From: Acidovorax sp. SRB_14
GTDB taxonomy: Bacteria > Pseudomonadota > Gammaproteobacteria > Burkholderiales > Burkholderiaceae_C
DNA: 38,570 nt
Direction: 5' to 3'
NCBI RefSeq assembly: GCF_012932145.1
Contig: NZ_MWOK01000030.1
Location: forward strand, 1-38,570
A program made the position numbers and the translations under genes. Of this stretch, positions 8,172 to 31,211 are shown piece by piece. A model generated the notes under the pieces. The model did not search any database. It was not told the origin of the DNA and worked only from the letters and a program-made list of their open reading frames with translations. Each line of letters starts with the position of its first letter. Position 1 is the first letter of the stretch.

Positions 8172-8225
8172 ACTATGCAATCCATAGCTGCAGGCGCTTT
8201 ATCTATAAGGGCTGGCGGCGGAAAA
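8172..8225 (+). repeat. 54-bp dispersed repeat, copy A (kup-benE intergenic)
   Basis: First of seven related 54-bp units. All have the same spacing: an 18-base head ending in AGCT, then a 36-base tail with GCGCTT-like and AAGCGCT-like arms of a small hairpin. Here the head is ACTATGCAATCCATAGCT and the tail has GGCGCTT...AAGGGCT. It lies in the 131-bp gap between kup and the BenE-family gene. Confidence 0.8.
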
Positions 8226-8251
8226 CACCCAAAATCTGCGCTGTCCGGGCA

Positions 8252-10126
8252 TCAGATCTCGATCTTGGAGCCCAGTTCCACCACGGCGTTGTTGGGCAGG
8301 TGCAGAAAGTCGGCCGCGCCGCTGGCGTTGTGGTGCATTTGGGCAAACAGCTTCTCGCGCCACGGCGCCATGCCCGTGCCCACGGTGGGAATGACCGTGT
8401 CGCGCGAGAGGAAGTAGCTGGTGCCCATGGGCTCGAGCTCACAGCCGCGCCCGCGCAACAGGGCCAGCGCGCGCGGCAGGTCGGGGTCGTCCATGAAGCC
8501 ATAGTGGACGACCACCTGCCAGCAGTTGTGGCCCAGCGCCTGTAGCTGCACGCGCGCATCGCCCTCGACCCAGGGCACCTCGTGGTTGTGCACCGTGACG
8601 AACAGGTTTTGCGCATGCAGCACCTTGTTGTGCTTGAGGTTGTGCAGCAGCGCGTTGGGTACGGTGCCCCGCTCGGCGGTCAGGAACACGGCGGTGCCGT
8701 CCACGCGCACCGGCGGGCTGACGAACACCGACTCCAAAAACTCGGACAGGCCCAGGGCATCGCTGGCGAAGGCGGCGCGCATCAGGCGGCGCCCGTCCTC
8801 CCAGGTTTTCATCAGAATGAAGATGGCGCTGGCGATGACCAGCGGGAACCAGCCGCCCTCGAACAGCTTGAGCAGATTCGAAGCCCAGAACGCGAAGTCC
8901 ACGACAAAGAAGAAAGCCGTGGCACCCAGGCTCAACGCCAGGGGCAGGCGCCAGGCGTTGCGGATGACGAAGAAGGTGAGGATGGTGGTGATCAGCATGT
9001 CGGTCGTCACGGCGATGCCGTAGGCCGAGGCCAGCGCGCTCGACGACTTGAACATGACGACCGCCATCGCGATCATGGCGAACAGGGCCCAGTTGACGAA
9101 GGGCAGATAAATCTGGCCGGCCTCCTTGACGCTGGTGTGCAGCACGCGCAAGCGCGGCAGGTAGCCCAGCTGGATGACCTGCTTGGTCACGCTGAAAGCG
9201 CCCGAGATCAGCGCCTGCGAAGCGATCACGGCAGCCACGGTGGCCAGCAGCACCATGGGCACCAGGGCCCACTCGGGGGCCATCATGAAAAACGGGTTCT
9301 TGACGGCCTCGGGACGCTTGAGCAGCAGCGCACCCTGGCCGAAGTAATTCAGCGTGAGTGCCGGCATGACGACGGCAAACCAGGTCACACGGATCGGGCG
9401 CCGCCCGAAGTGTCCCATGTCGGCATACAGCGCCTCGGCGCCGGTCACGCACAGCACCACGGCGCCCAGAATAATGAAGGTGATGCCCGGGTGCTCGTAG
9501 ATGAAGCGCAGCGCATAGTGCGGGCTGATGGCCCACAGGATGCGCGGGTTGTCGGCAATGTTGTACAGGCCGAGCGCGGAGATGGCGACGAACCACAGCA
9601 CCATCACCGGCCCGAAAAAGCGCCCGATGCTCGCGCTGCCGCGCTTTTGCACCATGAACAGCAACAGCAGAATGACCAGGGTGAGCGGGACCACGTATTG
9701 CTTGAACGTGGGCGAGATGACCTCCAGCCCCTCGACCGCCCCGAGCACCGTGATGGCCGGGGTGATGACACCATCGCCATAGAACAGGCAGGTGCCGAAG
9801 ATGCCCACCAGCAGCAGCCATTTGCGCAGCCGCGGCTGGTGTTTGACGGTCTGCGATGCCAGCGCCAGCATCGCCACCAGGCCGCCCTCGCCATGGTTGT
9901 CGGCGCGCAGCACCAGCACCACGTACTTGAGCGAGACGATGACGGTGAGCGTCCAGAAGAAGATGGACAAGATTCCGTGCACGTTGTCGGACGTGAACGG
10001 CACATGGCCCGAGCCAAACACCTCCTTGACGGAGTACAGCACGCTGGTGCCGATGTCGCCGTAGACGACACCGATGGCGCCCAGCATCAGCACACCCAGG
10101 GAGGATTTAGAGTTTTCCACTGCCAT
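8252..10126 (-). CDS. kup: low-affinity potassium uptake protein Kup
   Basis: 624 residues, the usual length (E. coli Kup has 622). It is an inner-membrane K+/H+ symporter of the KUP/HAK/KT family. The N-terminus contains [20 protein letters not shown], the family signature with the conserved Asp. About twelve membrane segments run to near residue 450, and a hydrophilic C-terminal domain follows ([20 protein letters not shown] is typical). The start at 10126 gives [22 protein letters not shown] just upstream is a weak ribosome site. It lies 151 bp after gshA and is followed by a BenE-family transporter. trkH and trkA are upstream on the same strand, so two K+ systems sit together with both glutathione genes. 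Confidence 0.96.
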
Positions 10127-10228
10127 TTCCGCTGCGCACCGACCGGTCTGGGCGCTGGCGGGGCTCTGTTATTGGGGGTTGCCATTGTGCCCGTTGGCCC
10201 GGACGCACGGGCGCGGGCCTTTTCACAA

Positions 10229-10243
10229 TGTTGCAGCGCAACA
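10229..10243. promoter_or_regulatory. inverted repeat upstream of kup
   Basis: TGTTGCAGCGCAACA has 6-bp perfect arms around AGC, in the 151-bp gap between gshA and kup. It could be an operator or a small hairpin. No T run follows on either strand, so a terminator is unlikely. Nothing else in the gap is recognisable. Confidence 0.35.
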
Positions 10244-10277
10244 ACTGGCGGTGCGCCGGACGCCGGCGCCGCCCGCT

Positions 10278-11573
10278 TCAGTCGTAGACCTCGGCGTCGG
10301 GGTCGGTGGCTTCGAGCTCGTAGCTGGCGGCCAGCATGGCCAGGCGCGCGATCACGCCATACATATAGAAGCGGTTGGGCGCGCTGGCGCCAGGGCGCGC
10401 GCCCAGCTGCGGCATGTGGGTGCTGTGGTCAAAGGCCAGCGGCACAAAGCTCGCGCCCGGTGCGTTGAGGTTTTCGTCCACGCCGCGGTCGGCATGCATG
10501 CGGTAGAAGCCGCCGACGACGTAGCGGTCCATCATGTAGACCACGGGCTCGGCCACGGCTTCGTGCACGCGCTCGCGTGTCAGCACGCCCTCCTGGATGA
10601 TGAGGTCGTGCACGGGCTGGCCGTCCTTGATGACGGCCATCTTGTTCTTCGACTTGCGGTTGAGCGTCTGCAGTTCCTTGGCGTCGTGCACCGTCATGAT
10701 GCCCATGCCATAGGTGCCGTTGTCGGCCTTGACGATGGCGAACGGCTTTTCGTTGATGCCGTATTCCTTGTACTTGCGCCGCACCTTGGACAGCAGCGCG
10801 TCGACCTGGGTCTGCAGGTTCTCCAGCCCCGTGTCCTCGGTGAAATCGATCTCGCCGCACTTGCCAAACAGGGGGTTGATGAGCCAGGGGTCGATGCCCA
10901 GCAGCTTGCCAAAGCGCTTGGCCACCTCTTCGTAGCTGCGGAAATGGTTGCTCTTGCGGCGCACGCTCCAGCCCGCGTGCAGCGGCGGCAGCAGGTACTG
11001 TTCGTGCAGGTCTTCGAGGATGCCGGGCGGCCCGGCCGACAGGTCGTTGTTGAGCAAGATGGTGCAGGGGTCGAAGTTCTTCAGCCCCAGGCGGCCCCTA
11101 TTGCGCTGCACCGGCTCGAGCGTCACGCTCTCGCCCGTGGGCAGCTCGATGACGGTGGTTTTCTTGACCTCGGGGCTGATCGAGCCCACGCGCACATTGA
11201 GCCCAGCCATGTTGAAGATGCGCTGCAGCTGCACCACGTTGCTCAGGTAGAAGCTGTTGCGCGTGTGGTTTTCGGGAATGATCAGCAGGTTGCGCGCCTC
11301 GGGGCAGATCTTCTCGATGGCCGCCATCGCGGCCTGCACGGCCAGCGGCAGCATCTCCTGGGTGAGGTTGTTCCAGCCGCCCGGAAACAGGTTGGTGTCC
11401 ACAGGCGCGAGCTTGAAGCCGGCGTTGCGGATGTCCACCGAGGTATAGAACGGCGGCGTGTGCTCCATCCACTCGAGCCGGAACCAGCGCTCGGTGGCCG
11501 GCATGGAGTCGATGATGCGCTGCTCTAGCTCGTTGATGGGCCCGGTGAGGGCCGTGATGAGGTGCGGAACCAT
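10278..11573 (-). CDS. gshA: glutamate--cysteine ligase (betaproteobacterial GshA type)
   Basis: 431 residues. It makes gamma-glutamylcysteine from glutamate, cysteine and ATP, the first step of glutathione synthesis. The sequence belongs to the short GshA family first noted in Acidithiobacillus and common in betaproteobacteria, not the E. coli GshA family. Typical blocks are RLEWMEHTPPFYTSVDIRN, the FPGGWNNLT segment, ENHTRNSFYL, and KADNGTYGMGIMTV, which looks like an ATP-grasp glycine-rich loop. The ATG at 11573 has a good AGAAGG ribosome site seven bases upstream. A TACAAT -10-like box is at 11607-11602. A 10-bp hairpin separates it from trkH. gshB is 3.4 kb downstream on the same strand. 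Confidence 0.94.
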   Translation of the reverse strand: MVPHLITALTGPINELEQRIIDSMPATERWFRLEWMEHTPPFYTSVDIRNAGFKLAPVDTNLFPGGWNNLTQEMLPLAVQAAMAAIEKICPEARNLLIIPENHTRNSFYLSNVVQLQRIFNMAGLNVRVGSISPEVKKTTVIELPTGESVTLEPVQRNRGRLGLKNFDPCTILLNNDLSAGPPGILEDLHEQYLLPPLHAGWSVRRKSNHFRSYEEVAKRFGKLLGIDPWLINPLFGKCGEIDFTEDTGLENLQTQVDALLSKVRRKYKEYGINEKPFAIVKADNGTYGMGIMTVHDAKELQTLNRKSKNKMAVIKDGQPVHDLIIQEGVLTRERVHEAVAEPVVYMMDRYVVGGFYRMHADRGVDENLNAPGASFVPLAFDHSTHMPQLGARPGASAPNRFYMYGVIARLAMLAASYELEATDPDAEVYD

Positions 11574-11620
11574 GGGAAGGCCTTCTAAGACGTTAGCAGC
11601 GATTGTAGGGAGTCGCCCTG

Positions 11621-11653
11621 CCCGCTGGCGTTCCCGGCAGGGCCGCCAGCGGG
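11621..11653 (-). terminator. hairpin after trkH
   Basis: CCCGCTGGCG (11621-11630) and CGCCAGCGGG (11644-11653) form a perfect 10-bp stem with a 13-base loop. It lies 13 bases beyond the trkH stop and before the gshA promoter region. It lacks a T run, so it may be an inefficient or Rho-assisted terminator. Confidence 0.5.
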
Positions 11654-11666
11654 CGGCGCGCGCCGC

Positions 11667-13133
11667 TCAGCGGCGCCAGAATGCGGGCGTCAGCAAGGCC
11701 ATGAAGCTCAGGATTTCCAGGCGTCCGAGCAGCATGCCCAGCGTGCACACCCAGGTCTGGAAGTCGGTGAGCAGCGCGTAGTTCGACGCGGGGCCGATGC
11801 TTCCCAGGCCTGGCCCGGTGCAGTTGACGCTGGCCAGCACGGCACTGAAGGCGGTCAGTGGGTCGAGGTCGGTCAGCATCAGCGCCATGCTGAGCACGAC
11901 GACCGTGCCGCCATAGACCAGCATGAAGGCCATGACCGAGAAGATCATGCGCGACTCGACCACCGCGCCGCCCAGGCGCACCGGCTGCACCGCGTTCGGG
12001 TGCACTAGGCGCGTGAGCTCGCGCCGCGCCTGCTTGAGCAGGATCAGCATGCGCACCATCTTGATGCCGCCGCCCGTGGAGCCGGCGCTGGTCGCCACGC
12101 CCGAGAGCATCAGCATGAAGACCGGCGCAAACACCGGCCAGGCCAGGTAGTCCACCGTGGAAAAACCCGTGGTCGTGGCCACCGAGACCACATGGAACAC
12201 GCCGTAGCGCAGCGCGTCGAGCGGGCCATACACGCCCTTGGCCCAGAGCAGCACGGCCACCAGCAGCCCGCCGCCGAGCAGCGCCACACAGGTAGCGCGC
12301 ATTTCCGGGTCGCGCCAGAAGCCGCGCCAGTGGCCCTTGCGCAGCGCGACAAAGTAGAGCGCGAAGTTGCAGCTGGCCAGCAGCATGAACACCAGTGCAA
12401 TGCCTTCGAGCAGCGGCGACTGGAAGAAGGCAAAGCTCGCGTCGTGCGACGACAACCCGCCCAGGCTCACCGTGGAAAACATGTGCATCAGTGCGTCCAG
12501 CGGCGCCATGCCACCGGCCCAGTAGGCCAGCGCGCAGAGCACGGAAAACAGCGCGTACACGCCCCACAGGCCCTTGGCCGTCTCGGTCATGCGCGGCGTC
12601 AGCTTGGTGTCCTTGACCGGGCCCGCGGCCTCGGCCTTGAACAGCTGCGCGCCGCCCACGCCCAGCAGCGGCAGCACCGCCACGGCCAAAATCAGGATGC
12701 CCATGCCGCCGATCCACTGCATGAAGGTGCGCCACACGTTCACCGAGACCGGCAGCGTGTCGAGCTGCGAGAGCACGGTCGCGCCCGTGGTGGTCAGGCC
12801 CGACACCGCCTCGAAGTAGGCGTGGGTGAACGACAGCGGCCGCCCCACCTGGTGGCAGGCCAGCATCAGCGGCAGCATGGCAAACAGCGGCAGCAGCGCC
12901 CACACCAGCGACACCAGCATGACCCCATGGCGCGGCTGCAGCTCGCGCTTGTAGCGGCGCAGCCCCACCACCAGGCTGGCGCCCACCAGCAGCGTGACCC
13001 CCATGGCCACGGGGTACACCTGCCAGACGCCGTCCTGCGCAAACCAGGACACCGCCAGCGGCACGCCCATGGAGAGCGCAAACAGCATCGTGAGCATGCC
13101 CAGCACGCGCAGGACGGGAAGAAGGTCGATCAT
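11667..13133 (-). CDS. trkH: Trk potassium transporter membrane subunit TrkH
   Basis: 488 residues, normal for TrkH (E. coli 483). It is the inner-membrane K+ translocating subunit. The four pore loops are visible as SGLTTTGATVLSQ, STVSLGGLSSHDAS, VVSVATTTGFSTVDY and NCTGPGLGSIGPASNY, each giving a selectivity-filter strand. The N-terminus MIDLLPVLRVLGMLTMLF is a membrane segment, and the C-terminus GRLEILSFMALLTPAFWRR is typical of the family. It starts 24 bp after the trkA stop, so the two are probably co-transcribed, trkA first. It needs cytoplasmic TrkA for regulation. Confidence 0.96.
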   Translation of the reverse strand: MIDLLPVLRVLGMLTMLFALSMGVPLAVSWFAQDGVWQVYPVAMGVTLLVGASLVVGLRRYKRELQPRHGVMLVSLVWALLPLFAMLPLMLACHQVGRPLSFTHAYFEAVSGLTTTGATVLSQLDTLPVSVNVWRTFMQWIGGMGILILAVAVLPLLGVGGAQLFKAEAAGPVKDTKLTPRMTETAKGLWGVYALFSVLCALAYWAGGMAPLDALMHMFSTVSLGGLSSHDASFAFFQSPLLEGIALVFMLLASCNFALYFVALRKGHWRGFWRDPEMRATCVALLGGGLLVAVLLWAKGVYGPLDALRYGVFHVVSVATTTGFSTVDYLAWPVFAPVFMLMLSGVATSAGSTGGGIKMVRMLILLKQARRELTRLVHPNAVQPVRLGGAVVESRMIFSVMAFMLVYGGTVVVLSMALMLTDLDPLTAFSAVLASVNCTGPGLGSIGPASNYALLTDFQTWVCTLGMLLGRLEILSFMALLTPAFWRR

Positions 13134-13157
13134 GGCCGGGCGCCGTCGGCGAGCGTG

Positions 13158-14615
13158 TCAGAAGAACGTGGCGCTCACGCGGAACAGCTGCTCGACATCG
13201 CGCACCAGGCGTTTGTGCGGCAGGAAGAAGACCACATGGTCGTTGCTCTCGATCTGGGTATGGCTGCGCGGAATGATGACCTGGGGCGGCGCGGCCGGCG
13301 CTCCCGGCAGCGGCGCGGCGCCCGGCTCGGGCAGGCCGCGCACGATCAGGCCCATGTGCACGTCACCGGGCAGGCGCAGCTCGCTCACCTTGCGCCCGAC
13401 CACGCGAGAGCTCTTGCGGTCGCCGCGCGCCACGATCTCCAGCGCCTCGGCCACGCCGCGGCGCAGGCTGTGCACGGCCTGCACGTCGCCGCGGCGCACG
13501 TGGGCCAGCAGCTCACCCAGCATGGCCTGCGCGGGCGAGAGGGCGATGTCGATCTGCGTGCCATGCATCAGGTCGGCATAGCTGCGCCGGTGGATCAGCG
13601 CGAGCACGCGCCGCGCGCCCATGCGCTTGGCCAGCAGGCTCGACATGATGTTGTTCTCGTCGTCGTCGGTGAGCGCCAGGAACAGGTCCACCTCCTCGAT
13701 GTTCTCGCTTTCGAGCAGCTTTTCGTCGGTGGCATCGCCCTGCAGCACCAGCACCTGCGAGGGCAGCGCCGACGCCAGCGCGATGCAGCGCGGCGGGTCG
13801 GATTCGATCAGCTTGACATGGAAACGCCCCGGCTCGGCGCCCAGCTGCAGCGCCAGGCGCAGGCCGACGTCACCGCCGCCGGCGACCATGATGCGGCGCA
13901 CGGCGCGCGCCGGCTGGCCTTCGCGCCGGTGCAGCGAAGCGAGCACGAACGGCAGGTGCTCGCGCGCCGCCAGCACGAAGACCTCGTCGCCGGGCTCGAT
14001 GCGCGTGGCGCCGCTGCAGGCGACGAAGCGGTCGGGCTCTTCGGGAAAGCGCCGGTAGATGGCCACCACGCGCATGGCCACGTGGGGCGTGGCCGCGCGC
14101 ACCTGGGCGATGGTGAGGCCGACCATCGGCGCGCCGGCACGTGCGCGCGTGGCCACCAGGCAGGCACGCCCACCGGCAAATTCGCGCACCTGCATGGCCT
14201 CGGGGTACTCGATGAGCTTGGCGATATAGCGCGTGAGCGACGCCTCGGGGCAGATCACGCTGACGGCAAAGCCGTCCGGCCCGGCCAGCGGCCCGCCGGG
14301 GTCGAACCCCGAGGAGCGCACGCGCGCAATGCGCGCCGGAACGTTGAACAGCAGCTGCGCGACCTTGCAGCACACCAGGTTGGTCTCGTCCTGCGCGGCG
14401 CAGGCGATGAGCAGGTCGGTGTCGTTGGCCCCGGCCTCGGCCAGCACCGCCGGGTCGATGCCGTTGCCGACCACGGCGCGCAAGTCCAGGTGCGCTTCGA
14501 GTTCGCGCACGCGCGCGGCGTCGGTGTCGATGACGGTGATGTCGTTGCGCTCGGAGACCAGGCTCTCGGCGACGCTCTGGCCCACGCGGCCGGCCCCCAG
14601 GATGATGATTTTCAC
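13158..14615 (-). CDS. trkA: Trk potassium transporter NAD-binding regulator TrkA
   Basis: 485 residues (E. coli TrkA 458). It is the cytoplasmic nucleotide-sensing ring that gates TrkH. Two Rossmann/RCK units are visible: MKIIILGAGRVGQSVAESL at residue 1 and RRIMVAGGGDVGLRLALQL near residue 241. Each is followed by a TrkA-C-like region. The second TrkA-C region carries an unusual Pro/Ala-rich insert (EPGAAPLPGAPAAPPQ), which may explain the extra length. The start is GTG at 14615, chosen because it gives the invariant MKIIILGAGRVG. The gene lies 45 bp after proA's stop and 24 bp before trkH. Confidence 0.96.
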   Translation of the reverse strand: MKIIILGAGRVGQSVAESLVSERNDITVIDTDAARVRELEAHLDLRAVVGNGIDPAVLAEAGANDTDLLIACAAQDETNLVCCKVAQLLFNVPARIARVRSSGFDPGGPLAGPDGFAVSVICPEASLTRYIAKLIEYPEAMQVREFAGGRACLVATRARAGAPMVGLTIAQVRAATPHVAMRVVAIYRRFPEEPDRFVACSGATRIEPGDEVFVLAAREHLPFVLASLHRREGQPARAVRRIMVAGGGDVGLRLALQLGAEPGRFHVKLIESDPPRCIALASALPSQVLVLQGDATDEKLLESENIEEVDLFLALTDDDENNIMSSLLAKRMGARRVLALIHRRSYADLMHGTQIDIALSPAQAMLGELLAHVRRGDVQAVHSLRRGVAEALEIVARGDRKSSRVVGRKVSELRLPGDVHMGLIVRGLPEPGAAPLPGAPAAPPQVIIPRSHTQIESNDHVVFFLPHKRLVRDVEQLFRVSATFF

Positions 14616-14660: not shown

Positions 14661-15941
14661 TCAGGCCCGCACTTCGCCCTCGCCCAGCACCACCCACTTG
14701 AGCGAGGTCAGCCCTTCGATGCCGACCGGGCCGCGCGCATGGAACTTGTCGGTGCTGATGCCGATCTCGGCGCCCAGGCCGTATTCAAAGCCGTCGGCAA
14801 AGCGCGTGCTGGCGTTGACCATGACGCTGGCCGAATCGACCTCGCGCAGGAAGCGCTGGGCGTGCATGTGGTCGCGCGTGAGGATGGCGTCGGTGTGGTG
14901 GCTCGAATAGCGGTTGATGTGCGCGATGGCCTCGTCCAGCCCCGCCACCACGCGGATCGAGATGATGGGCGCGAGGTACTCCTCGGACCAGTCCTGCTCG
15001 GTGGCGTCGACCAGCTTCGCTCCTGAAACCGCCGCCAACAGCGCCCGGCTGGCGGGGCACACGCGCATTTCAACGCCTTTTTCAGCGTAGACCGCGCCGA
15101 TGCGCGGCAGGAACTCGGCCGCCACGCCCGCGGCCACCAGCAGGCCCTCGCTGGCATTGCAGGGGCTGTATTTGCTGGTCTTGGCGTTGTCGGCCACGGC
15201 CACGGCCATGGCGAGATCGCAGGGGTCGTCGACGTAGGTGTGGCAGTTGCCGTCCAGGTGCTTGATCACGGGCACCTTGGCCTCGCGGCTGATGCGCTCG
15301 ATCAGGCCCTTGCCGCCGCGCGGGATGATCACGTCGACGTACTGCGGCATGGCGATGAGCTGGCCGACGGCCTCGCGGTCGGTGGTCTGCACCAGCTGCA
15401 CCGCGTCCTGCGGCAGGCCGGCCTCGGCCAGCGCCTGCTGCACCAGCTGGGCGAGCGCCTTGTTCGAATCGATCGCCTCGGAGCCACCGCGCAGGATGCA
15501 GGCGTTGCCGCTCTTGATCGAGAGCGAAGCCGCCTCGATGGTCACGTTGGGCCGGCTCTCGTAGATCATGCCGAAGACGCCGATCGGCACGCGCATCTGG
15601 CCCACGCGGATGCCGCTGGGCTGCTGCTTCATGCCCAGCACCTCGCCAATGATGTCGGGCATGGCGGCCAGTTGTTCGCAGCCCTGGGCGCAGGTCTCCA
15701 GCACCTGCGGCGTGAGCTTGAGCCGGTCCACCAGGGGCTCGGCCAGGCCGGCGGCGCGGGCGCGCTCGAGGTCGCGCGCATTGTCGGCCTGAAGCGCCCC
15801 GGTCTGTGCGCGCAGCAGCCGGGCCAACGCCTTCAATGCTTTGTTTTTGATAGCTGCAGGCGCTTTGGCCATCAGGGCTGAAGCCGCTTTTGCCTGTAAA
15901 CCAAGGGTCTGGGTGTATTCGCTGACGTGGAGGGCGTTCAT
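14661..15941 (-). CDS. proA: gamma-glutamyl phosphate reductase
   Basis: 426 residues, standard ProA length. It reduces gamma-glutamyl phosphate to glutamate semialdehyde with NADPH in proline synthesis. It has the aldehyde-dehydrogenase-like fold, with [25 protein letters not shown] and the catalytic Cys261 in [11 protein letters not shown]. The ATG at 15941 gives [18 protein letters not shown], the usual N-terminus; no clear ribosome site precedes it. Residues about 17-35 are encoded by a copy of the 54-bp dispersed repeat (15838-15891), in antisense orientation, without changing the expected length. The gene normally follows holA in this group, but here a dodecin gene on the opposite strand lies between them. 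Confidence 0.96.
15838..15891 (+). repeat. 54-bp dispersed repeat, copy C (inside proA, antisense)
   Basis: The head GCTTTGTTTTTGATAGCT is followed by a tail starting GCAGGCGCTTT, whose first 11 bases match copy A; AGGGCTG is also shared. The unit lies within codons 17-35 of proA, antisense to the gene. Its frame relative to the gene equals that of copy F in purK. Confidence 0.65.
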
Positions 15942-17452: not shown

Positions 17453-17506
17453 AAATCAGGCTTAGACGCTTTACCAGCAAGCGTTGAAAGCTCTTTTTTC
17501 AATAGC
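17453..17506 (-). repeat. 54-bp dispersed repeat, copy D (lptE-holA intergenic)
   Basis: Head GCTATTGAAAAAAGAGCT, tail with ACGCTT/AAGCGT arms, ending CCTGATTT. It occupies over half of the 93-bp gap between lptE and holA, inside a probable operon. Unlike the coding copies it has a stop (TAA) in the frame that leuS and cnoX use. Confidence 0.8.
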
Positions 17507-18079: not shown

Positions 18080-20761
18080 TCAGACCACCACGTTGACGAG
18101 GCGGCCGGGCACGATCACGACCTTTTTCGGCGCCGCGCCGCCCGCCTGCCTGGCAAACGCCTCGCTGGCCAGGGCCACGCGCTCGATCTCGGCGCGGTCG
18201 GCCTGGGCGCCGACGTGGATGGAGCCGCGCAGCTTGCCGTTGACCTGCAGCATGAGCTCGATCTCGTCCTGCACCAGCGCCGCGGGGTCGACCTGCGGCC
18301 AGGGTGCGTCGAGCAGCTCGCCGAGCGCCCGGTCGTAGCCCAGCGTGCTCCACAGGCTGTGCGCCACGTGCGGCGTGGCCGGGTAGAGGCAGCGCAGCAG
18401 GATGCCGAAGCCCTCGATCAGCGCCACCTGCGCGCCGGCCGAGTCCATGGCCTTGAAGTCTTCGAGCGCGTTGATCATCTTCATCGTGCCCGAGACCACG
18501 GTGTTGTACTGCATGCGCTGGTAGTCGTAGTCCACCTGCTTGAGCACGGTGTGGATCTCCAGGCGCAGGGCTTTGGCCTCCTTGCCAAACTCCACGTCTT
18601 TCAGGCTGTTAGCGCCCGCCACGCTTGCGCTTGCAGCTCCTTGATCGATAGCAGAGAGCTTGATGCCGAAGTTCCATACGCGGCGCAGGAAGCGGTAGCT
18701 GCCTTCGACGGCAGAGTCGTTCCATTCGAGCGTGGCCTCGGGCGGCGAAGCGAACATGGTGTAGAGGCGCGCGGTGTCGGCGCCGTACTTCTCGATCAGG
18801 TCCTGCGGGTCGACGCCGTTGTTCTTGGACTTGGACATGGTGCCCACGCCCTCGTAGTCGATGGCCGTGCCCACGGGCAGGTCGCCCACGGCGTGGATGA
18901 GCCGGGCGCCGATGACCTTGCCGTCATCGCCCAACACGTGCTCGACATCGTGCGGCCAGAAATACTCCTTGCCGCCCTTGTCGGTGCGGCGCGAGTAGAT
19001 GTGGTTGAGCACCATGCCCTGCGTGAGCAGCTTGGTGAAGGGCTCGTCGACCTTGACCAAGCCCAGGTCGCGCATGACCTTGGTCCAGAAGCGCGCGTAC
19101 AGCAGGTGCAGGATGGCATGCTCAATACCGCCGATGTACTGGTCCATCGGCATCCAGTAGTCGGCGCCTTCGGCCACCATGGCCTCGGTGTTCTTCGGGT
19201 CGCAGTAGCGCATGAAGTACCACGAGCTGTCGACGAAGGTGTCCATGGTGTCGGTCTCGCGCCGCGCGGCCTTGCCGCAGACCGGGCAGACCACGCCGGC
19301 ATGGAAGCCTTCGTGGTGGTGCAGCGGGTTGCCCGAGCCGTCGGGCACGCAGTCGGTGGGCAGCACCACCGGCAGATCCTTTTCCGGCACGGGCACGGCG
19401 CCGTGCTCGTCGCAGTGGATGATCGGGATCGGCGTGCCCCAGTAGCGCTGGCGGCTCACGCCCCAGTCGCGCAGGCGCCAGGTGGTCTTTTTCTCGCCCA
19501 GGCCCTTTTGCGCGAGCGCGTGGGCCACGGCGTTGACGGCCTCCTGGTAGGGCAGGCCGCTGAAGCTGTCGGAGTTGATGGTGACGCCGGCACCCTTGTC
19601 GCCATACCAGTCGTTCCACTGCTGGTAATCGAAATGCTCGCCGTCGACCAGCACCACCTGCTTGATCTCGATGCCGTATTTGAGTGCAAAGGCAAAGTCG
19701 CGCTCGTCGTGCGCGGGCACGCCCATCACGGCGCCGTCGCCATAGCCGATGAGCACGTAGTTGCCCACCCACAGGTCGACCGGCTCGCCGGTCAGCGGGT
19801 GCGTGACCGTCAGGCCCGTGGCCATGCCCTTCTTCTCTTGCGTGGCCAGTTCGGCCTCGGTCGTGCCGCCGCTCTTGCATTCCTCGATGAAGGCGGCCAG
19901 CTGCGCGTTGCTGCGCGCGGCGTGCTGGGCCAGCGGGTGCTCGGGCGCCACCGCGCAGAAGGTCACGCCCATGATGGTGTCGGCGCGCGTGGTGAACACG
20001 TACATCCTGCCGCCGCCGATCAGCGCGCCATCGTCGCCGCGGATGTCGTGCGGGAACGCAAAGCGCACGCCCTCGCTCTTGCCGATCCAGTTCTCCTGCA
20101 TCAGCTTGACGCGCTCGGGCCAGCCCGGCAGCTTGTCGCCCGTGACCGAATCCAGCAGCTCCTGCGCGTAGTCGGTGATCTTGAGGTAGTAGCCCGGGAT
20201 CTCGCGCTTTTCCACGGTGGCGCCGGTGCGCCAGCCCTTGCCGTCGATGACCTGCTCGTTGGCCAGCACGGTCTGGTCCACCGGGTCCCAGTTGACGACC
20301 TGGGTCTTGCGGTAGGCAATGCCCTTTTCGAGCATCTTCAGGAACAGCCACTGGTTCCAGTGGTAGTAGTCGGGGTCGCAGGTGGCGACCTCGCGGCTCC
20401 AGTCGATGGCCAGCCCCATCGCCTGCATCTGCTTCTTCATGTAGGCGATGTTGTCGTAGGTCCACTGCGCAGGCGGCACGCCGTTCTTCATGGCGGCGTT
20501 CTCGGCGGGCAGGCCGAAGGCGTCCCAGCCCATGGGCATGAGCACGTTGTAGCCGTTCATGCGCAGGTGGCGCGTGAGCATGTCGTTGATGGTGTAGTTG
20601 CGCACATGGCCCATGTGCAGCTTGCCGCTGGGGTAGGGCAGCATCGAGCAGGCATAGAACTTCTTCTTGCCGGCGTCTTCGGTCACGCGGTAGGCGTCGT
20701 GCGCCGTCCAGTGGGCCTGCGCGGCGCGCTCGACCTCGGTGTGTTGGTATTTGTCTTGCAT
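18080..20761 (-). CDS. leuS: leucyl-tRNA synthetase
   Basis: 893 residues (E. coli LeuS 860). It charges tRNA-Leu and edits wrong amino acids. Class I motifs are the HIGH motif as HMGH (residues 49-52, in [14 protein letters not shown]) and KMSKS as MSKSK (about 641). The CP1 editing region is present with [19 protein letters not shown] zinc motif precedes [19 protein letters not shown]. Residues 704-721 ([18 protein letters not shown]) are encoded exactly by a sense-oriented 54-bp repeat and look like an extra segment in a variable stretch of the C-terminal part. The ATG at 20761 gives [18 protein letters not shown]. lptE follows after two bases and exbD precedes by 91 bp. Confidence 0.97.
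18599..18652 (-). repeat. 54-bp dispersed repeat, copy E (inside leuS, sense)
   Basis: Head GCTATCGATCAAGGAGCT. The tail contains a 21-base core (18611-18631) that differs at one position from the core of copy G in cnoX (28826-28846). The unit is exactly codons 704-721 of leuS, starting at a codon boundary. The peptide SASVAGA parallels SASGAGA in cnoX. Confidence 0.85.
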
Positions 20762-21295: not shown

Positions 21296-21985
21296 TCAGT
21301 CGCTGCGCGCGGGTGGGGCGGGGGCCGCGTCGAGCACCAGCTCGCGCAGGTCGCGGGCGAAGCCTTCGAGATCGGCCTCGATGCGCCCGAGCAGGCGGCC
21401 GAACACGTTGTAGGCCAGCACGGCGGGAATGGCCACAGCCAGGCCGGCGGCGGTCATGACGAGGGCCTCGCCCACCGGGCCGGCCACCTGGTCGATGCTG
21501 ATCTGGCCCGCGCGGGCCATGGCCGCGAGCGCATGGTAGATGCCCCACACGGTGCCCAGCAGCCCCACGAACGGCGCCGTGGAGCCCACGGTGGCCAACA
21601 GCACCTGGCCCCACTGCAGCTTGCCCAGCACCGCGTGCAGCGCGTCGCGCAGCACGCGCGTGAGCTGCTGCGCGGCGCTGCCCGCCCGGGCCAGGGTCCC
21701 GGAAGGGGCGCTGTGCCCCGGTGGATTCGCTATGGATTTTGCAGCATCCACCAAAGGCAGGACCAGCGTTTCACGGTCAAAAGACGCGATGTGCTGGTGG
21801 GCGGCGTCCAAGTTCGGCGCCTGCCAGAAGGCCGCCGTGCAGCGCGCCACGTCGTGGCGGGCCCGGCGCAGCAGCAGCGCCTTCCAGGCGATGACCACCC
21901 AGCTGGCCACCGACATGGCGAGCAGCAGCAGCGCCGTGGCCTGCGTCACCGCATCGCCTTGCTCCCACCATTGCAGCGCACCCAT
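21296..21985 (-). CDS. exbB: MotA/TolQ/ExbB proton channel family protein
   Basis: 229 residues with three membrane segments: about 16-38 (TALLLLAMSVASWVVIAWKAL), about 128-150 (VLLATVGSTAPFVGLLGTVWG) and about 170-192 (VMTAAGLAVAIPAVLAYN). GSTAPFVGLLGTVWGIYHAL and the final helix with its Pro are the ExbB/TolQ signature. It forms the proton channel with ExbD. ATG at 21985; the dapB stop is 13 bp upstream, so it belongs to the bamE-dapB-exbBD run. A doubtful 54-bp repeat remnant overlaps codons 68-86. With fur nearby, iron uptake is a plausible role (inference); no Fur box was recognised. Confidence 0.91.
   Translation of the reverse strand: MGALQWWEQGDAVTQATALLLLAMSVASWVVIAWKALLLRRARHDVARCTAAFWQAPNLDAAHQHIASFDRETLVLPLVDAAKSIANPPGHSAPSGTLARAGSAAQQLTRVLRDALHAVLGKLQWGQVLLATVGSTAPFVGLLGTVWGIYHALAAMARAGQISIDQVAGPVGEALVMTAAGLAVAIPAVLAYNVFGRLLGRIEADLEGFARDLRELVLDAAPAPPARSD
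21729..21782 (+). repeat. possible degenerate 54-bp repeat, copy H (inside exbB)
   Basis: The head GCTATGGATTTTGCAGCA resembles the family head, but the tail matches poorly apart from AGCGT at the right place. It may be a decayed copy or chance similarity. Confidence 0.3.
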
Positions 21986-26220: not shown

Positions 26221-27222
26221 ATGACCTTCCCCCCGAACCGCCGCCGCGCCCTCCAAGCCGGTGGTGCGCTCGCCGCCGCATCGGCCTTTCCCAGCTTGCT
26301 GCTCGGCAACGCGCATGCGCAAAGCGCATGGCCCACCAAATCGGTGCGCCTGATCGTGCCGTTTGCACCGGGGGGCAGTTCGGAGATCGTGGCGCGCTCG
26401 GCAGCTTCCGAGCTGACCAAGACGCTGGGCCAGAGCGTGTTTGTCGACAACAAGCCTGGCGCGGGCGGCAACATCGCCATGCAGGAATGCGCCGCCAGCA
26501 CCGACGGCCACACCCTCATCCTGGGCCACATCGGCACCATGGCGGTGAACCCGTTCATCTACGACAAGCTGCCGTTTGACACCAACCGCGACTTCCAGCC
26601 GATCTCGCTGCTGGCCAAGGTGCCCAGCCTGTATGTGGTGAACGCCAACGTGCCGGCCAAGAACCTCCAGGAGTTCATCGCGCTGGCGCGGGCCAAGCCG
26701 GGCCAGCTCAACTACGGCTCGGCCGGCAACGGCAGCGCCGGCCACCTGGCGTTCGAGTACCTGAAGATGGCGACCAACACCTTTGTGCTGCACGTGCCCT
26801 ACCGCGGCACCGGCCCGCAGCTGACCGATCTGCTGGCCGGCCGCCTGGACGCCGCCGCCGTGGGCGCACCCGCGATCCTGGCGCACATCAAGTCGGGCAA
26901 GCTGCGCTGCATCGCCACCGGCACCAAGGAGCGCCTGCCGCAACTGCCCGACGTGCCCACGGTGGCCGAAAGCGGCTTCCCCGGCTTTGAAATGACGCAG
27001 TGGTACGGCCTGAACGCGCCCGCCAGCATGTCGCAAGCGGCCATCGACAAGATCGCCGAGGCCTGTGGCAAGGCTATGCGCAACCCGCTGGCCACCGAGC
27101 GCCTGCGCGGCGACACCGCCCAGCCCGTGGGCGACTCGCCCGCCCAGTACGGCGCCTTCATTGCCGCCGAGCAGGCGCGCTGGAAAAAGGTGATTGCCCG
27201 CGCGAAGATCCATCCCGATTGA
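26221..27222 (+). CDS. Bug-family periplasmic substrate-binding protein (TctC-like)
   Basis: 333 residues. The signal peptide has twin arginines followed by a hydrophobic stretch (NRRRALQAGGALAAASAF...NAHAQ), compatible with Tat or Sec export. The mature protein has the Bug/TctC pattern: WPTKSVRLIVPFAPGGSSEI, DNKPGAGGNIAMQECA, GQLNYGSAGNGSAGHLAFEY, VPYRGTGPQLTDLLAGRLD and PTVAESGFPGF. Known members bind carboxylates for tripartite tricarboxylate transporters, or act alone as sensors. No TctA/TctB gene is next to it, so it is an orphan and the ligand is unknown. The ATG at 26221 has GGAG seven bases upstream. Confidence 0.9.
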   Translation: MTFPPNRRRALQAGGALAAASAFPSLLLGNAHAQSAWPTKSVRLIVPFAPGGSSEIVARSAASELTKTLGQSVFVDNKPGAGGNIAMQECAASTDGHTLILGHIGTMAVNPFIYDKLPFDTNRDFQPISLLAKVPSLYVVNANVPAKNLQEFIALARAKPGQLNYGSAGNGSAGHLAFEYLKMATNTFVLHVPYRGTGPQLTDLLAGRLDAAAVGAPAILAHIKSGKLRCIATGTKERLPQLPDVPTVAESGFPGFEMTQWYGLNAPASMSQAAIDKIAEACGKAMRNPLATERLRGDTAQPVGDSPAQYGAFIAAEQARWKKVIARAKIHPD

Positions 27223-27262
27223 TCGCCCAGGCGCGGCGGCGCCGCACCCGGCGCCGCCGAAC

Positions 27263-27316
27263 GCTCCGAAATCCATAGCTACAAGCGCTTACCCCATAAG
27301 CGCTGGAGCCCGATTT
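27263..27316 (+). repeat. 54-bp dispersed repeat, copy B (Bug-purC intergenic)
   Basis: Head GCTCCGAAATCCATAGCT. The tail has the best hairpin of the family, AGCGCTT-ACCCCAT-AAGCGCT (7-bp arms), and ends CCCGATTT. It lies 41 bp after the Bug-gene stop. The rest of the 281-bp gap to purC holds a TAAAAT -10-like box at 27413-27418 without a clear -35. Confidence 0.85.
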
Positions 27317-27503
27317 CACGCACCAACTGGATCAAGCTCCCCTTTCTCGCCGCGCCACCCGCCCACGAGGAACACAGGGCATCTGGCCGGCAGGGCACGG
27401 CGCCCGGCGGCTTAAAATGGCCGATTGGCACGGGCCGCCGGATTCCGGCCCCCACCCGCCGCCCACAGCGCAGTGCGCCCCGATTGCAACGTTTCACCAC
27501 ACC

Positions 27504-28424
27504 ATGACCCAGTCCAGCCCCCCTGCCCTGCACACCTCGACCCTGACTTCGCTGCCGCTGCTGGCACGCGGCAAGGTGCGCGACAACTACGCCGTGGGCA
27601 ACGACCGCATCCTGATGGTGGCCAGCGACCGCCTCTCGGCGTTCGACGTGATCATGGGCGAGCCGATCCCCGGCAAGGGCGAGCTGCTCACGCAGATGGC
27701 GCTGTTCTGGTTCGACAAGCTCGGCCACCTCTGCCCGAACCACCTGACCGGCGACGCCCCCGAGAGCGTCGTGGGCCCCGAAGAGGTGGCGCAGGTGCGC
27801 GGCCGCTCGATGCTGGTGCAGCGCCTGCAGCCCATTCCGGTCGAGGCCGTGGTGCGCGGCTACCTGGCCGGCAGCGGCTGGCAGGAATACCAGGCATCGC
27901 AATCGGTCTGCGGCGTGCCGCTGCCCGCCGGCCTGAGCAATGCCGCCCAGCTGCCCCACCCCATCTACACGCCGGCCGCCAAGGCCGCGGCGGGCGAGCA
28001 CGACGAGAACATCACCTTCGAGCGCACGGTGGAAATGATCGGGCTCCCACTCGCCACGCGCATCCGCGACCTGAGCATCGCCATCTACGAAGCGGCGGCC
28101 CAGATCGCCCTCACCAAGGGCATGATCATTGCCGACACCAAGTTCGAGTTCGGCCTCGCGCCCGACGGCACGCTGGTACTGATGGACGAGGTGCTCACGC
28201 CCGACAGCTCGCGCTACTGGCCCGTGGAAGGCTATGCCGAGGCACTGGCCAAGGGCGAGAACCCGCCCAGCTACGACAAGCAGTTCGTGCGCGACTGGCT
28301 CGAGCAGGCGCAGGTGGGCGGCAAGCCCTGGAACAAGACGGCGCCCGCGCCCCGCCTGCCCAGCGACGTGGTCGACAAGACCGCCGCCAAATACCGCGAA
28401 GCGCTGGAGCGCCTGACGGCCTGA
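27504..28424 (+). CDS. purC: phosphoribosylaminoimidazole-succinocarboxamide synthase
   Basis: 306 residues, the longer betaproteobacterial/yeast-like SAICAR synthase. It joins aspartate to CAIR with ATP in purine synthesis. [26 protein letters not shown] is the N-terminal ATP-binding block (only the family pattern is meant). [24 protein letters not shown] and [13 protein letters not shown] are conserved. The ATG at 27504 gives [20 protein letters not shown], which fits the length; no strong ribosome site is visible. It is followed by a two-way terminator shared with cnoX. purE and purK lie 1.1 kb downstream, separated by cnoX on the other strand. Confidence 0.97.
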
Positions 28425-28477
28425 GCCACGCGCTGCGGTGGCCGGGCCGCTGCGGCCCTGGCCGGCGGCCCCCAAAA

Positions 28478-28501
28478 GAAAAGGCCCGCACGGGCCTTTT
28501 T
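28478..28501. terminator. bidirectional terminator between purC and cnoX
   Basis: AAAAGGCCC and GGGCCTTTT pair around a four-base loop, with an A run on one side and a T run on the other. It lies 54 bases after the purC stop and 34 bases after the cnoX stop, so it can end both convergent transcripts. Confidence 0.85.
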
Positions 28502-28534
28502 CAATGGGGGACCAGTGGCCGGGCCGGCCGGTCT

Positions 28535-29443
28535 TCAGCTCAGCACGACGGAGCTGAGCCGGCGGCGGTAGCTGGCCACGACCGGGTCTTCGGGCGGGAT
28601 CTGGCCGTCGGCCACCTTGACCTTGGGCGGCTCGATGATTTCGAGGATGGCCACATAGGTCTTGCGCGCCAGTTCGTCGCTCCAGGCCTTGTCGCGCATC
28701 AGGATGTCGAGCAGCTCGTCCATCGCGTCGGTCCAGCGCTGCTGCGCCATGAGCCAGCGGGCGCGGCCGAAGCGCGCATCGAAATCGCGCTTGTTCGCGG
28801 CAATCTTTGCATCGAATTCGGCCTCAGCGCCCGCCCCGCTTGCGCTGACAGCTACAAAATCAAGAGCATCCATCCAGGCCTTGAGCGCGCCCAGGCGGCG
28901 CGAAGTGGCGGCCTTGGCGATGACGGGGGCGAACGCCACCTTGGCGTCGTCCTCGCGGCCCAGCTGCAGCAGCAGCTTGACGTAGTCGAAGCGCGCATCG
29001 TCGTTGGCCGGGTCGGTGGCGACGGCGTGCTGCAGTTTTTCGAGGGCGGTGTCGGTGTCGCCCTCGGCCAGGGCGTCCTGCGCCAGGTCTTCCTCGACTT
29101 CGGCCAGGGCCTCCTCGGCGCTGGGCACATGCTTGTCGAGGAAGGCGCGCACCTGGCCCTCGGTTTGCGCGCCGGTGAAGCCGTCCACGGGCTGGCCGCC
29201 CATCAGCAGCACGCAGGTCGGAATGCTGCGGATGCCGAACATGCCGGCGAGCTGCTGCTCCTGGTCCGAATCGATCTTGGCGAGTTTGAAGCGGCCCGCG
29301 TATTCGGTTTCGAGCTTTTCGAGGATGGGACCGAGCGACTTGCACGGGCCGCACCAGGGCGCCCAGAAGTCCACCAACACGGGCACCTCCATGGAGGCGG
29401 CAATCACCTCGGCTTCAAAATTCTCTACGGTGACATCAATCAT
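28535..29443 (-). CDS. cnoX: CnoX/YbbN-like thioredoxin-TPR co-chaperone
   Basis: 302 residues. The N-terminal thioredoxin fold has [20 protein letters not shown], with a complete CGPC redox site at residues 31-34. It is followed by TPR-like helices ([39 protein letters not shown]) and a conserved C-terminal region. E. coli CnoX lacks the redox cysteines, while other bacterial CnoX proteins keep CGPC, so this one is probably an active oxidoreductase and chaperone (inference). Residues 193-210 ([18 protein letters not shown]) are exactly one 54-bp repeat in sense orientation. The start is ATG at 29443; an upstream TTG at 29452 is less likely. It is divergent from purE and shares a terminator with purC. 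Confidence 0.9.
28814..28867 (-). repeat. 54-bp dispersed repeat, copy G (inside cnoX, sense)
   Basis: Head GCTCTTGATTTTGTAGCT. The tail core (28826-28846) matches copy E at 20 of 21 bases and ends GGCCGAATTC. It is codons 193-210 of cnoX, beginning at a codon boundary, as copy E does in leuS. Confidence 0.85.
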
Positions 29444-29547
29444 GGGGCTCAAATTTCCTGGCAGTGGAAGGGTGGATGGCTAAAAGTAAAATCGCGGGTT
29501 CACACTCTGCGGGAGCGGCCAGCACGGCGCACCGCACTCCACACACT

Positions 29548-30045
29548 ATGACACCCATCCAGATCGGTGTGGTCATGGGTTCCAGCAGCGACTGGGACAC
29601 CATGCAGCACGCAGTAGAGATTCTCCAGCACTTTGGCATTCCGCACGAGGCGCGGGTGGTTTCGGCGCACCGCATGCCCGACGACATGTTCGCCTACGCC
29701 GAAGGCGCGGCCGCGCGCGGCCTCAAGGCCATCATCGCCGGCGCGGGCGGCGCCGCCCACCTGCCGGGCATGATCGCCGCCAAGACCCCGGTCCCGGTGC
29801 TCGGCGTGCCGGTGGCCAGCCGCCACCTGCAGGGCCTGGACTCGCTCTACAGCATCGTGCAGATGCCCAAGGGCGTGCCGGTGGCCACGTTCGCCATCGG
29901 CAGCGCCGGCGCGGCCAACGCGGCGCTGTTCGCCGTGGCGCTGCTGGCCAATGAAGACCCCGAGCTGCGCCAGCGCCTGAACGCTTTCCGCGCTGCGCAG
30001 ACCGAGATCGCACGCGGCATGGCCCTGCCGCCCGCCGCGCCATGA
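29548..30045 (+). CDS. purE: 5-(carboxyamino)imidazole ribonucleotide mutase
   Basis: 165 residues, normal for class I PurE. It converts N5-CAIR to CAIR in purine synthesis. [17 protein letters not shown] is the phosphate-binding loop. [30 protein letters not shown] and PVLGVPV follow in the standard order. ATG at 29548. It overlaps purK by ATGA (30042-30045), so the two are translationally coupled. It is divergent from cnoX; the 104-bp gap shows no clear promoter apart from a TAAAAT near 29490. Confidence 0.97.
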
Positions 30046-31211
30046 CGCCGGCGCCACGTCCTCTTCTGCCCGGCGCCACGCTGGGCGTGCTCGGCGGCGG
30101 CCAGCTCGGGCGCATGTTCGTGCACGCGGCGCAGGCCATGGGCTATTTCACGGCCGTGCTCGACGCCGACCCCGCCAGCCCGGCCGGCCTGGTGAGCCAC
30201 CACCACATCCAGGCCGGCTATGAAGATGCCGCCGGCCTGGCCGAGCTCGCGCGCCTGAGCGACGCCATCACCACCGAATTCGAGAACGTGCCGGCCGCCG
30301 CACTGGCCGCCCTGGCGGCGCAGCGCCCGGTGGCCCCGGCCGCCAGCGCCGTGGCCGTGGCGCAGGACCGCGCGCAGGAAAAGGCCCACTTCGTGCGCTG
30401 CGGCGTGCCGTGCGCGCCCTATGCCGTGATCGAAACCGCCGCGCAACTGGCGGCCGTGCCGGCCGATCTGCTGCCGGGCATTCTGAAAACTGCGCGCATG
30501 GGCTACGACGGCAAAGGCCAGGCGCGCGTGGCCACGGCCGCCGAGCTGGCCGCTGCCTGGGAGGCGGTCGACCGCGTGCCCTGCGTGCTCGAAAAAATGC
30601 TGCCGCTGGCGCTCGAATGCTCGGTGATCGTGGCGCGCGGTGCCGACGGCATGGTGGTGCACCTGCCGGTGCAGCGCAACCTGCACCGCGACGGCATCCT
30701 GGCCGTGACCGAGGTGTATGAGTCAAATCTGCCCCAAACGCTTGCGGCACAAGCGGTAGAAGCTGCGGTATCGATAGCAAACGGCCTGCAGTACGTGGGC
30801 GTGCTGTGCGTGGAGTTCTTCGTGCTGGAGGACGGCCGCCTGGTGGTCAATGAGATCGCGCCGCGCCCGCACAACAGCGGCCACTACAGCCAGAACGCCT
30901 GCGATGTCTCGCAGTTCGAGCTGCAGGTGCGCACCCTGGCCGGCCTGCCGCTGACGCAGCCGCGCCAGCACAGCGCCGCCGTCATGCTGAACCTGCTCGG
31001 CGACCTGTGGTTTGCCCACGGCGCGGCGGCGCGCACGCCGCCGTGGGACCAGATCCTGGCGCTGCCCGGCACGCACCTGCACCTGTATGGCAAGCACGAC
31101 GCCAAGCGCGGCCGCAAGATGGGCCACCTGAACATCACCGCACCGACGGCCGCCGCAGCACGCGCCACGGCGCTGCAGGCCGCAGAGCTGCTCGGCCTGC
31201 CGGCGTTCTGA
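30042..31211 (+). CDS. purK: 5-(carboxyamino)imidazole ribonucleotide synthase
   Basis: 389 residues. It is an ATP-grasp enzyme making N5-CAIR from AIR, bicarbonate and [23 protein letters not shown] is the N-terminal signature. [15 protein letters not shown] is the ATP-grasp glycine loop, and [19 protein letters not shown] is the active-site block. Residues about 228-246 are encoded by an antisense copy of the 54-bp repeat (30725-30778), lying just before the conserved [12 protein letters not shown], with no obvious change in length. It starts inside the purE stop and is followed by sua5 after 11 bases, so purE-purK-sua5 is probably one operon. Confidence 0.97.
30725..30778 (-). repeat. 54-bp dispersed repeat, copy F (inside purK, antisense)
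   Basis: The minus-strand head is GCTATCGATACCGCAGCT. The tail has CGCTT/AAGCG arms and ends GCAGATTT; 23 of the 36 tail positions match copy B by eye. It is antisense to purK and in the same relative frame as copy C in proA. Confidence 0.7.

Follow-up and report, generated by a model that had tools for sequence, protein, structure and literature searches.

A dispersed motif of about 60 bp in Acidovorax sp. SRB_14 and related Comamonadaceae, kept copy by copy and possibly uptake-signal-like

What keeps the same short DNA repeat in place both between and inside the housekeeping genes of a bacterium is the question raised by a 38,570-bp stretch of the Acidovorax sp. SRB_14 genome (contig NZ_MWOK01000030.1, positions 1 to 38,570), referred to as the window in the following. 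An initial annotation had described seven repeat units of 54 bp (A to G) in this window. All seven were recovered with coordinates and strands unchanged, and their placement was confirmed, with A, B and D in intergenic spacers and C, E, F and G within proA, leuS, purK and a thioredoxin-TPR gene, respectively. The family itself proved to be far larger, with two weaker additional units in the window and an extrapolated number of about 750 copies genome-wide. Hundreds of independently diverged copies are found on both strands, between and inside genes. A double-stranded DNA site that is read by a protein and kept copy by copy is well supported, and this protein might belong to a machinery for DNA uptake.

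Diverged copies between and inside genes

For the definition of the family, a gap-free weight matrix was seeded with 57 matches to the core pattern in the strain's own genome and retrained on a sample of 438,570 bp (400 kb of contig C40 and the 38.6-kb window). Prior to retraining, 67 matches above 15 bits were found in C40 and 6 in the window. The retrained matrix identified 86 copies above 20 bits, compared to 0 matches above 10 bits in three order-3 Markov shuffles, so that the family withstood the profile scan against shuffled sequence which the initial annotation had proposed. The number of about 750 copies per genome was extrapolated from these 86 copies per 438.6 kb. The bare core pattern, with up to 2 mismatches allowed, was detected 155 times on the forward and 135 times on the reverse strand of the 3.85-Mb genome, whereas the reversed pattern gave 0 matches. 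The number of core-pattern loci is somewhat lower than 290, since a few places among the matches listed match on both strands.

The consensus sequence of the 86 copies is GCTatnnatTnnATAGCTgccaGCGCttgccnngcaaGCGcTnGAGgCcnaTTTgacncnnAat. The unit has a length of about 60 to 65 bp, is roughly dyad-symmetric and A+T-rich relative to the genome, and its copies are dispersed. In the seven units of the window, 12 of 94 columns are invariant. ATAGCT, GCGC and the A-tract at columns 57-59 belong to the conserved parts of the motif. The pairwise identity of the 86 copies over 74 columns was 48% on average, with a maximum of 73%. With this mean and no near-identical pairs, recent transposition or conversion is not the explanation, and the low identity indicates that the copies are old and individually kept.

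Genes were predicted with a simple codon-usage caller made for this analysis, which is not a standard program. Based on these calls, 51 of the 86 copies are intergenic, 30 are located inside genes and 5 are partial. The intergenic copies lie between co-directional (38), convergent (12) and divergent (1) gene pairs. Divergent spacers are avoided, since 10.6 of the 51 copies would be expected there from the available positions (p 1.8e-4), and in co-directional spacers the half next to the upstream gene is preferred (29 of 38 copies, p 0.0017). Among the 30 coding copies, 16 are sense and 14 antisense, and preferred reading frames are used by 10 and 12 of them, respectively. The C40 copies are distributed over both strands (36 plus, 41 minus) and their spacing is near random (coefficient of variation 0.92). 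A role tied to the replication strand, as for KOPS or Chi, was rejected due to the lack of strand bias with replication in the relative G167 (20 samples of 20 kb), with 13 plus and 21 minus copies at positive GC skew and 13 of each at negative skew.

The coding copies carry a DNA signal beyond the protein sequence. In eight shuffles of synonymous codons, 0 to 1 coding matches above 20 bits were obtained per shuffle, compared to the 30 observed, which shows that protein conservation alone does not account for them; the second refutation named in the initial annotation therefore failed as well. Every coding copy scored 3.0 to 8.4 standard deviations above its own synonymous shuffles. The means of these shuffles ranged from -23 to +15 bits, and orthologous sites without the motif commonly score about -30 to -40 bits. 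For proA, a near-identical stretch scores -7 bits in Acidovorax soli compared to 57 in the window. The leuS site exceeds 20 bits in 30 of 81 sequences (80 named relatives, collected by leuS, and the window), and the purK site reaches 41 to 73 bits in 19 of the 22 members of the genus with an available purK locus, the own genome included. In relatives lacking the motif, the leuS stretch is among the least codon-conserved parts of the gene (146 of 151 windows are at least as conserved) and the proA stretch is the least conserved of all (61 of 61). In relatives bearing the motif, the stretch is average or better (30 of 151 windows at least as conserved for leuS, 27 of 61 for proA and 3 of 55 for purK).

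In several genes the motif is written in place on existing codons. Unit C (15838-15891, plus strand, 57.3 bits) is located antisense in proA near the N-terminus; it is not listed as a coding copy because the gene caller placed the proA start downstream of it. It is colinear with its homologues and without insertion. No gap is present in any of the 16 aligned sequences (the window and 15 of the 80 relatives, selected to cover carriers and non-carriers), and motif-bearing and motif-free relatives differ largely at synonymous positions. Among all relatives, 28 of the 32 without the motif are gap-free. The same holds for the three PDB chains shown, two of which are presumably from Burkholderia and Thermotoga. 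Unit F (30725-30778, minus strand, 57.8 bits), antisense in purK, is likewise colinear and without insertion in 22 of 22 genus members (own included) and in the two PDB homologues shown. Unit G (28814-28867, minus strand, 54.8 bits) lies on the sense strand of the gene 28535-29443, for which thioredoxin and TPR domains were found by domain search and which we take to encode a CnoX-like protein; 7 of 9 sequences are gap-free here and two contain a single gap. The leuS unit E (18599-18652, minus strand, 34.1 bits, sense strand) falls into a length-variable region of the protein and is less clear, with no gap in 26 of 45 relatives lacking the motif and a difference of at most 3 residues in 30 of 45.

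In a wider pass, 61 coding matches in the 80 relatives and the window resulted in 19 listed rows, of which 14 were testable and several represented the same site. The median length difference was at most 3 residues for 10 of these 14 rows, while 4 were insertion-like. After collapsing the rows by hand, 6 sites remain in the first group and 2 in the insertion-like one; two of the six (in locus L062 and in the TolQ-like gene of L056) fall into length-variable stretches.

Conserved double-stranded DNA and genome-wide state

The conserved features of the motif were analyzed in 162 non-redundant copies, obtained from 244 raw copies above 38 bits in all collected loci. The initial annotation had described a small hairpin with GCGCTT and AAGCGCT arms and had suggested folding and a covariation test. 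As a conserved feature, the hairpin was not confirmed. For 22 dyad pairs in the 162 copies, no excess of Watson-Crick pairing beyond multiple testing was found (smallest p 0.03). Double complementary changes occur in up to 24 of 162 copies at one pair, which is not above expectation, and the arms are often broken (CTT to CAG, CAT or CAA at columns 31-33). Folding as single-stranded DNA was clearly better than for shuffled sequences only for unit B (z -3.8) of the five units folded, and near the shuffles for A, D, E and F (z -0.5, -1.4, +0.5 and -1.4).

The strongest dependencies were found between neighboring columns, in which AA or TT are swapped as blocks. Columns 57-58 are AA or TT in 98% of the 162 copies and in 97% of the coding copies. 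Such block swaps without arm covariation are a signature of double-stranded DNA shape and not of a hairpin, as expected for double-stranded DNA that is read by a protein.

Across relatives, genomes largely either carry the motif as a set or lack it altogether. In the 75 usable of the 81 sequences (loci of at most 23 kb each), the motif at the leuS site was compared with other copies in the same locus. Both were present in 25 and neither in 42 loci, whereas 7 carry other copies only and 1 the leuS site only (Fisher p 1.4e-12; independent-pairs test, median p 0.001). On the leuS tree, 17 changes of the motif state were counted, at least 13 of which are forced. The carriers by name include Rhodoferax, Polaromonas, Extensimonas, some Acidovorax and Curvibacter, Comamonas odontotermitis and Ramlibacter, which bears out the earlier expectation of similar repeats in related genera. 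No motif was found in the loci (up to 23 kb each) of Delftia, Variovorax, Hydrogenophaga, Pseudorhodoferax, Malikia and Limnohabitans.

Among the 150 genomes analyzed from the GTDB family, 22 contain at least 40 core matches. In other families of the order, 3 of 195 genomes contain any match, with at most four each (up to 1 mismatch). Within the own genus, 23 of 26 genomes are dense (51-396 matches), and three contain 0, 1 and 4. These three are also the three of the 22 genus members that score below 20 bits at purK, though the protein is kept. A ComEC tree includes two of the three, both of them nested among carriers. One motif-poor genome (G302) contains eroded relics, with 12 matches above -5 bits in 200 kb where 0.3 would be expected. 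The use of another motif dialect by G302 and a second motif-poor genome, G005, was rejected, as no outstanding 12-mer was noticed in 200 kb of each. GC pressure as the cause of the loss was rejected as well, since its direction is wrong for an A+T-rich motif; the GC content of the purK locus is 0.614-0.626 in the three lacking congeners and 0.627-0.704 in the other 18.

Further units of the window and copies on mobile DNA

The remaining units of the window are distributed as follows. Unit A (8172-8225, plus strand, 61.0 bits) is intergenic, flanked by a BenE-family gene (6936-8120, minus strand) and a K+ transporter gene (8252-10126, minus strand). Unit D (17453-17506, minus strand, 66.4 bits) occupies the lptE-holA spacer, which has a length of 93 bp, and unit B (27263-27316, plus strand, 66.9 bits) is intergenic upstream of purC (27504-28424, plus strand). 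The first weak unit (21729-21782, plus strand, 27.6 bits) lies antisense in a MotA/TolQ/ExbB-family gene (21296-21949, minus strand). The second (31873-31926, plus strand, 26.6 bits), on the sense strand of a Sua5/TsaC-family gene (31223-32233, plus strand), may be a chance match or a relic. A complete rRNA operon with two tRNA genes (50-5359, minus strand) contains no motif copy. A perfect 28-bp inverted repeat without spacer (33232-33287), just downstream of a gene end at 33229, is probably a terminator.

Copies were also observed on plasmids. The 242-kb plasmid NZ_CP049911.1 of Diaphorobacter sp. HDW4A, a member of the Comamonadaceae, carries a near-consensus copy of 77.6 bits (L184:3001-3068), with a TonB-dependent receptor gene on one side and cobN on the other. 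Two further copies were found in class 1 integron cassettes, one of 63.5 bits (L183:3994-4061) on the E. coli plasmid NZ_MZ513635.1 and one of 48.9 bits (L182:3988-4055) on the Vibrio anguillarum plasmid CP076070.1. Both cassettes are annotated as 'DUF1010 domain-containing protein' and lie beside dfrA12/aadA2 and blaOXA-2. There is a hint that these cassettes derive from a motif-bearing chromosome of the Comamonadaceae. In the own genome, 6 of 7 weak matches to Pfam DUF1010 (PF06231) are located on motif copies (L186-L191); these matches have E-values up to 0.01, none is above the Pfam cut-off, and 150 of 295 candidates were scored. This overlap suggests that DUF1010 may in part be a translated DNA motif and not a protein family.

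Candidate machines and comparison with known systems

The motif is best described, tentatively, as a recognition site that is maintained copy by copy, its most likely nature being that of an uptake-signal-like sequence, a function we infer from the analyses above. A trans-acting machine would recognize the motif, and the copies would be kept singly by drive or selection, not by copying. Sequence-biased DNA uptake in natural transformation appears to be the likeliest among several possible machines. DNA carrying the motif would be taken up and recombined preferentially, motif-bearing alleles would spread, and motifs would accumulate at all places where the constraints on proteins and promoters permit it, as has been described for the uptake signal sequences (USS) of Haemophilus. 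Once the uptake bias is lost, the motifs would erode everywhere, even in genes with nearly unchanged proteins. This reading is suggested by several features in combination, namely the evolution in place at several genes, the block swaps of A-tracts, the use of both strands and of preferred frames, the near-random spacing and the loss as a set.

Several observations weigh against it. The motif of about 60 bp is far longer than the published cores of USS and of the DNA uptake sequences (DUS) of Neisseriaceae. The identity among copies has a somewhat wider spread than independent columns would give (standard deviation 0.069 compared to 0.053). The motif-poor G005 contains no relics in 200 kb (28 matches compared to 25 expected). 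A second site in proA with 13-18 extra residues in ten relatives of other genera looks inserted. At 7 of the 9 intergenic sites that could be tested, the spacer with a copy is longer than its counterparts in relatives. These spacers and the second proA site are not explained by point mutation, and some insertion probably occurs besides the in-place writing. The scarcity of the motif on plasmids and phages (6 plasmid records and no phage with the motif in the search) is a weak argument, since only 8 chromosomal matches per 400 kb reach the score that this search needs.

The presence of ComEC does not discriminate. The own genome has a match to ComEC, but so do motif-lacking genomes: in a selection of 46 genomes that comprised carriers and non-carriers, every genome gave a match (44 of them above the cut-off), and of the three motif-lacking congeners two gave one, the third being 84% complete. 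In G042 (C1:1835975-1837847), a genome with 111 motif matches, ComEC is split between reading frames, due to either a sequencing error or a recent loss of competence. The own genome also encodes a minor pilin matching Pfam ComP_DUS (L204:4671-5087, minus strand), with a RRGHRADARAGLLQAQQWLERAATATG stretch that is highly conserved in many of the motif-bearing genomes examined. This pilin, the PilE of the operon, lies directly behind pilY1 and pilX. The motif-poor G005 and G302 carry this type as well. In the raw counts, the ComP-like PilE type was found in 17 of 22 motif genomes and 5 of 128 others, using a profile made from nine congeners, of which two also belong to the 150 genomes. Under phylogenetic control 2 supported independent pairs are left, which is not significant, and the ComP-like PilE is therefore not supported as the receptor. 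For this control, 60 genomes were placed on a ComEC tree, 54 of them with both traits, and the motif was counted as present from 20 matches; G067, one of the 46 ComEC genomes, was left out due to a fragmentary ComEC match. Four of the five counterexamples (G125, G108, G118 and G066) are outside this tree, which makes the test a generous one. Taken together, ComEC and PilE are neutral for the uptake reading.

Among the alternatives, a chromosome-organizing or topology site, bound by a nucleoid, condensin or gyrase-type protein and kept at about 750 places by selection on structure, is unlikely but has to be taken seriously. It would fit the double-stranded type of conservation with A-tracts and no arm covariation, the occurrence on both strands at roughly random spacing in C40, the avoidance of divergent spacers and the preference for the upstream half. 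Individual selection on so many sites, strong enough to bend the codons of proA and purK, is however hard to picture, a specificity over 60 bp would be unusual for such proteins, and the lack of the set in 3 of 26 genus members points to a dispensable function. Rather unlikely is a non-autonomous mobile element, old and diverged, of the type of repetitive extragenic palindromes (REP), miniature inverted-repeat transposable elements or Rickettsia palindromic elements (RPE), with a transposase acting in trans. The longer spacers would be in agreement with this. The lptE-holA spacer measures 73-1129 bp in 5 relatives with a copy, two of which exceed 1 kb and could hold another gene; the three with no gene between have 73, 80 and 227 bp, whereas the 52 relatives that lack a copy have a median of 13.5 bp (39 of 52 at 0-37 bp). 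Only 1 of the 9 spacer differences, however, falls in the range of 40-90 bp expected from a single clean insertion. At the second proA site the motif is present in 7 of the 10 relatives with extra residues, but the relative L098 carries it with only 4 extra residues, and at unit C in proA, in purK and in the CnoX-like gene no residues are added. The initial comparison with palindromic elements that insert into genes therefore does not apply at proA and purK, which are gap-free against PDB homologues and relatives, and holds possibly in part for the second proA site and the longer spacers.

The mobile element is kept alive by the only gene of the RAYT type (REP-associated tyrosine transposase, Y1_Tnp) in the own genome. 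Its 3' end is overlapped by a degenerate copy of 26.5 bits with a largely lost core (L131:1085-1152, contig C29), which weakens the argument against mobilization by RAYT. Beyond the other end of this gene, no inverted second copy was found within the 0.3 kb examined. Near-identical pairs are missing among the 86 copies, and the arms lack covariation, whereas REP palindromes are reported to keep complementary changes (PMC2817692; here and below, statements refer to the parts of the cited sources that were examined). An RNA hairpin in 3' regions that acts as a terminator, an attenuator or an RNase site is very improbable. The GCGCTT/AAGCGC arms, the position of intergenic copies towards 3' ends and the double complementary changes, though not beyond expectation, would speak for it. 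It was rejected on the absent pairing excess, the often broken arms and the coding copies in both orientations; the Rfam search of the window gave rRNA and tRNA only, with no family at the gathering score on the units, and folding was near the shuffles for 4 of 5 units tested. Finally, that the coding matches reflect nothing other than conserved protein sequence is hardly conceivable. The protein contributes, as the synonymous shuffles still score above motif-free orthologous sites, but the distance of each copy from its shuffles and the low score of the near-identical A. soli stretch stand against it, and motif presence follows the genome.

With still more reserve than for the uptake-signal-like nature as such, it can be proposed that the Comamonadaceae possess a self-recognition uptake sequence of their own, 60 bp in length, dyad-like and with multiple A-tracts, which would be old enough to be found at the same leuS and proA codons across genera, would have been switched off lineage-wide repeatedly and would be exported in DUF1010 integron cassettes. 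If true, this would be a third uptake system, with a motif about five times as long as a DUS. It would allow the evolution of uptake systems to be tested in environmental bacteria, where many natural losses are available for comparison. Independently of the machine behind it, a motif that has altered synonymous codons in essential genes at hundreds of sites influences studies of codon usage, selection and phylogeny in this family.

Sequence-specific DNA uptake was named for two families in a 2020 paper (PMC7811141). The USS of Haemophilus and other Pasteurellaceae resemble the present motif in their hundreds to thousands of copies in and between genes and in a conserved core with AT-tracts, whose shape and interactions matter (PMC7811141). 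The USS of H. influenzae are described as evolving through point mutations and not by insertion (PMC7811141), which is paralleled by unit C in proA and the copies in purK and the CnoX-like gene but not by the second proA site and possibly some spacers. An intragenic orientation bias of uptake sequences has been published (PMC2346458), which is paralleled by the frame preference of the coding copies. The USS core comprises 9-11 bp with AT-rich flanks, whereas the motif of about 60 bp is dyad-like, has several A-tracts and occurs in another bacterial family. The DUS of Neisseriaceae are, like the motif, family-wide and missing in some relatives, and a ComP_DUS pilin is encoded in the own genome. 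In Simonsiella, pairs of DUS are arranged in dyad symmetry (PMC3630211). A DUS, however, measures 10-12 bp and differs in sequence (PMC2346458), and the neisserial receptor is ComP, whereas the operon PilE found here has no significant link to the motif after phylogenetic control.

The REP and BIME repeats associated with RAYT are similarly short, abundant, palindrome-like and near 3' ends, and a degenerate copy is located at the RAYT gene. The motif differs in the missing arm covariation, in its many coding copies (30 of 86 in genes) and in the absence of a GT(A/G)G head; the two inverted flanking copies that are a hallmark of REP/RAYT were not present in the examined 0.3 kb. The RPE likewise occur inside housekeeping genes and in open frames. 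They are insertions of about 150 bp (PMC10969869), whereas in proA, purK and the CnoX-like gene of the window the motif is in place; a gain of residues in frame is absent at proA and purK of the window, and the second proA site of other genera would fit it. The BRE repeats of Bordetella and Comamonadaceae are betaproteobacterial as well, with some copies wholly coding (Hot et al., 2011; PMC3110155). They have a length of 75-91 bp and 69% GC in Bordetella, are often in tandem and occur in 4 copies in Rhodoferax ferrireducens (PMC3110155), and the motif is set apart from them by size, GC content and copy number only, not by the BRE sequence.

In a literature search with most subscription journals outside reach, no recognized description of the 60-bp unit was found. 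The closest precedent is a scan of 569 genomes for motif pairs, in which R. ferrireducens had the most significant pairs (140) and GCTTAT(N)5AAGCG of Acidovorax ebreus was listed as a potential novel motif (Tong, Schliekelman and Mrazek, 2017; PMC5217627). Of its 114 copies, 107 are intergenic (44 convergent, 4 divergent and 59 co-oriented). A Polaromonas pair, ATAGCT(N)22CAAAAG, shares ATAGCT with the present motif. The A. ebreus pair matches the core of the present motif exactly. In the examined parts of that paper, the pairs are short and their role is unexplained, and the 60-bp unit, the coding overlay, the on/off state and the A-tract swaps are absent. The core of the motif was thus printed in 2017 as an unexplained pair.

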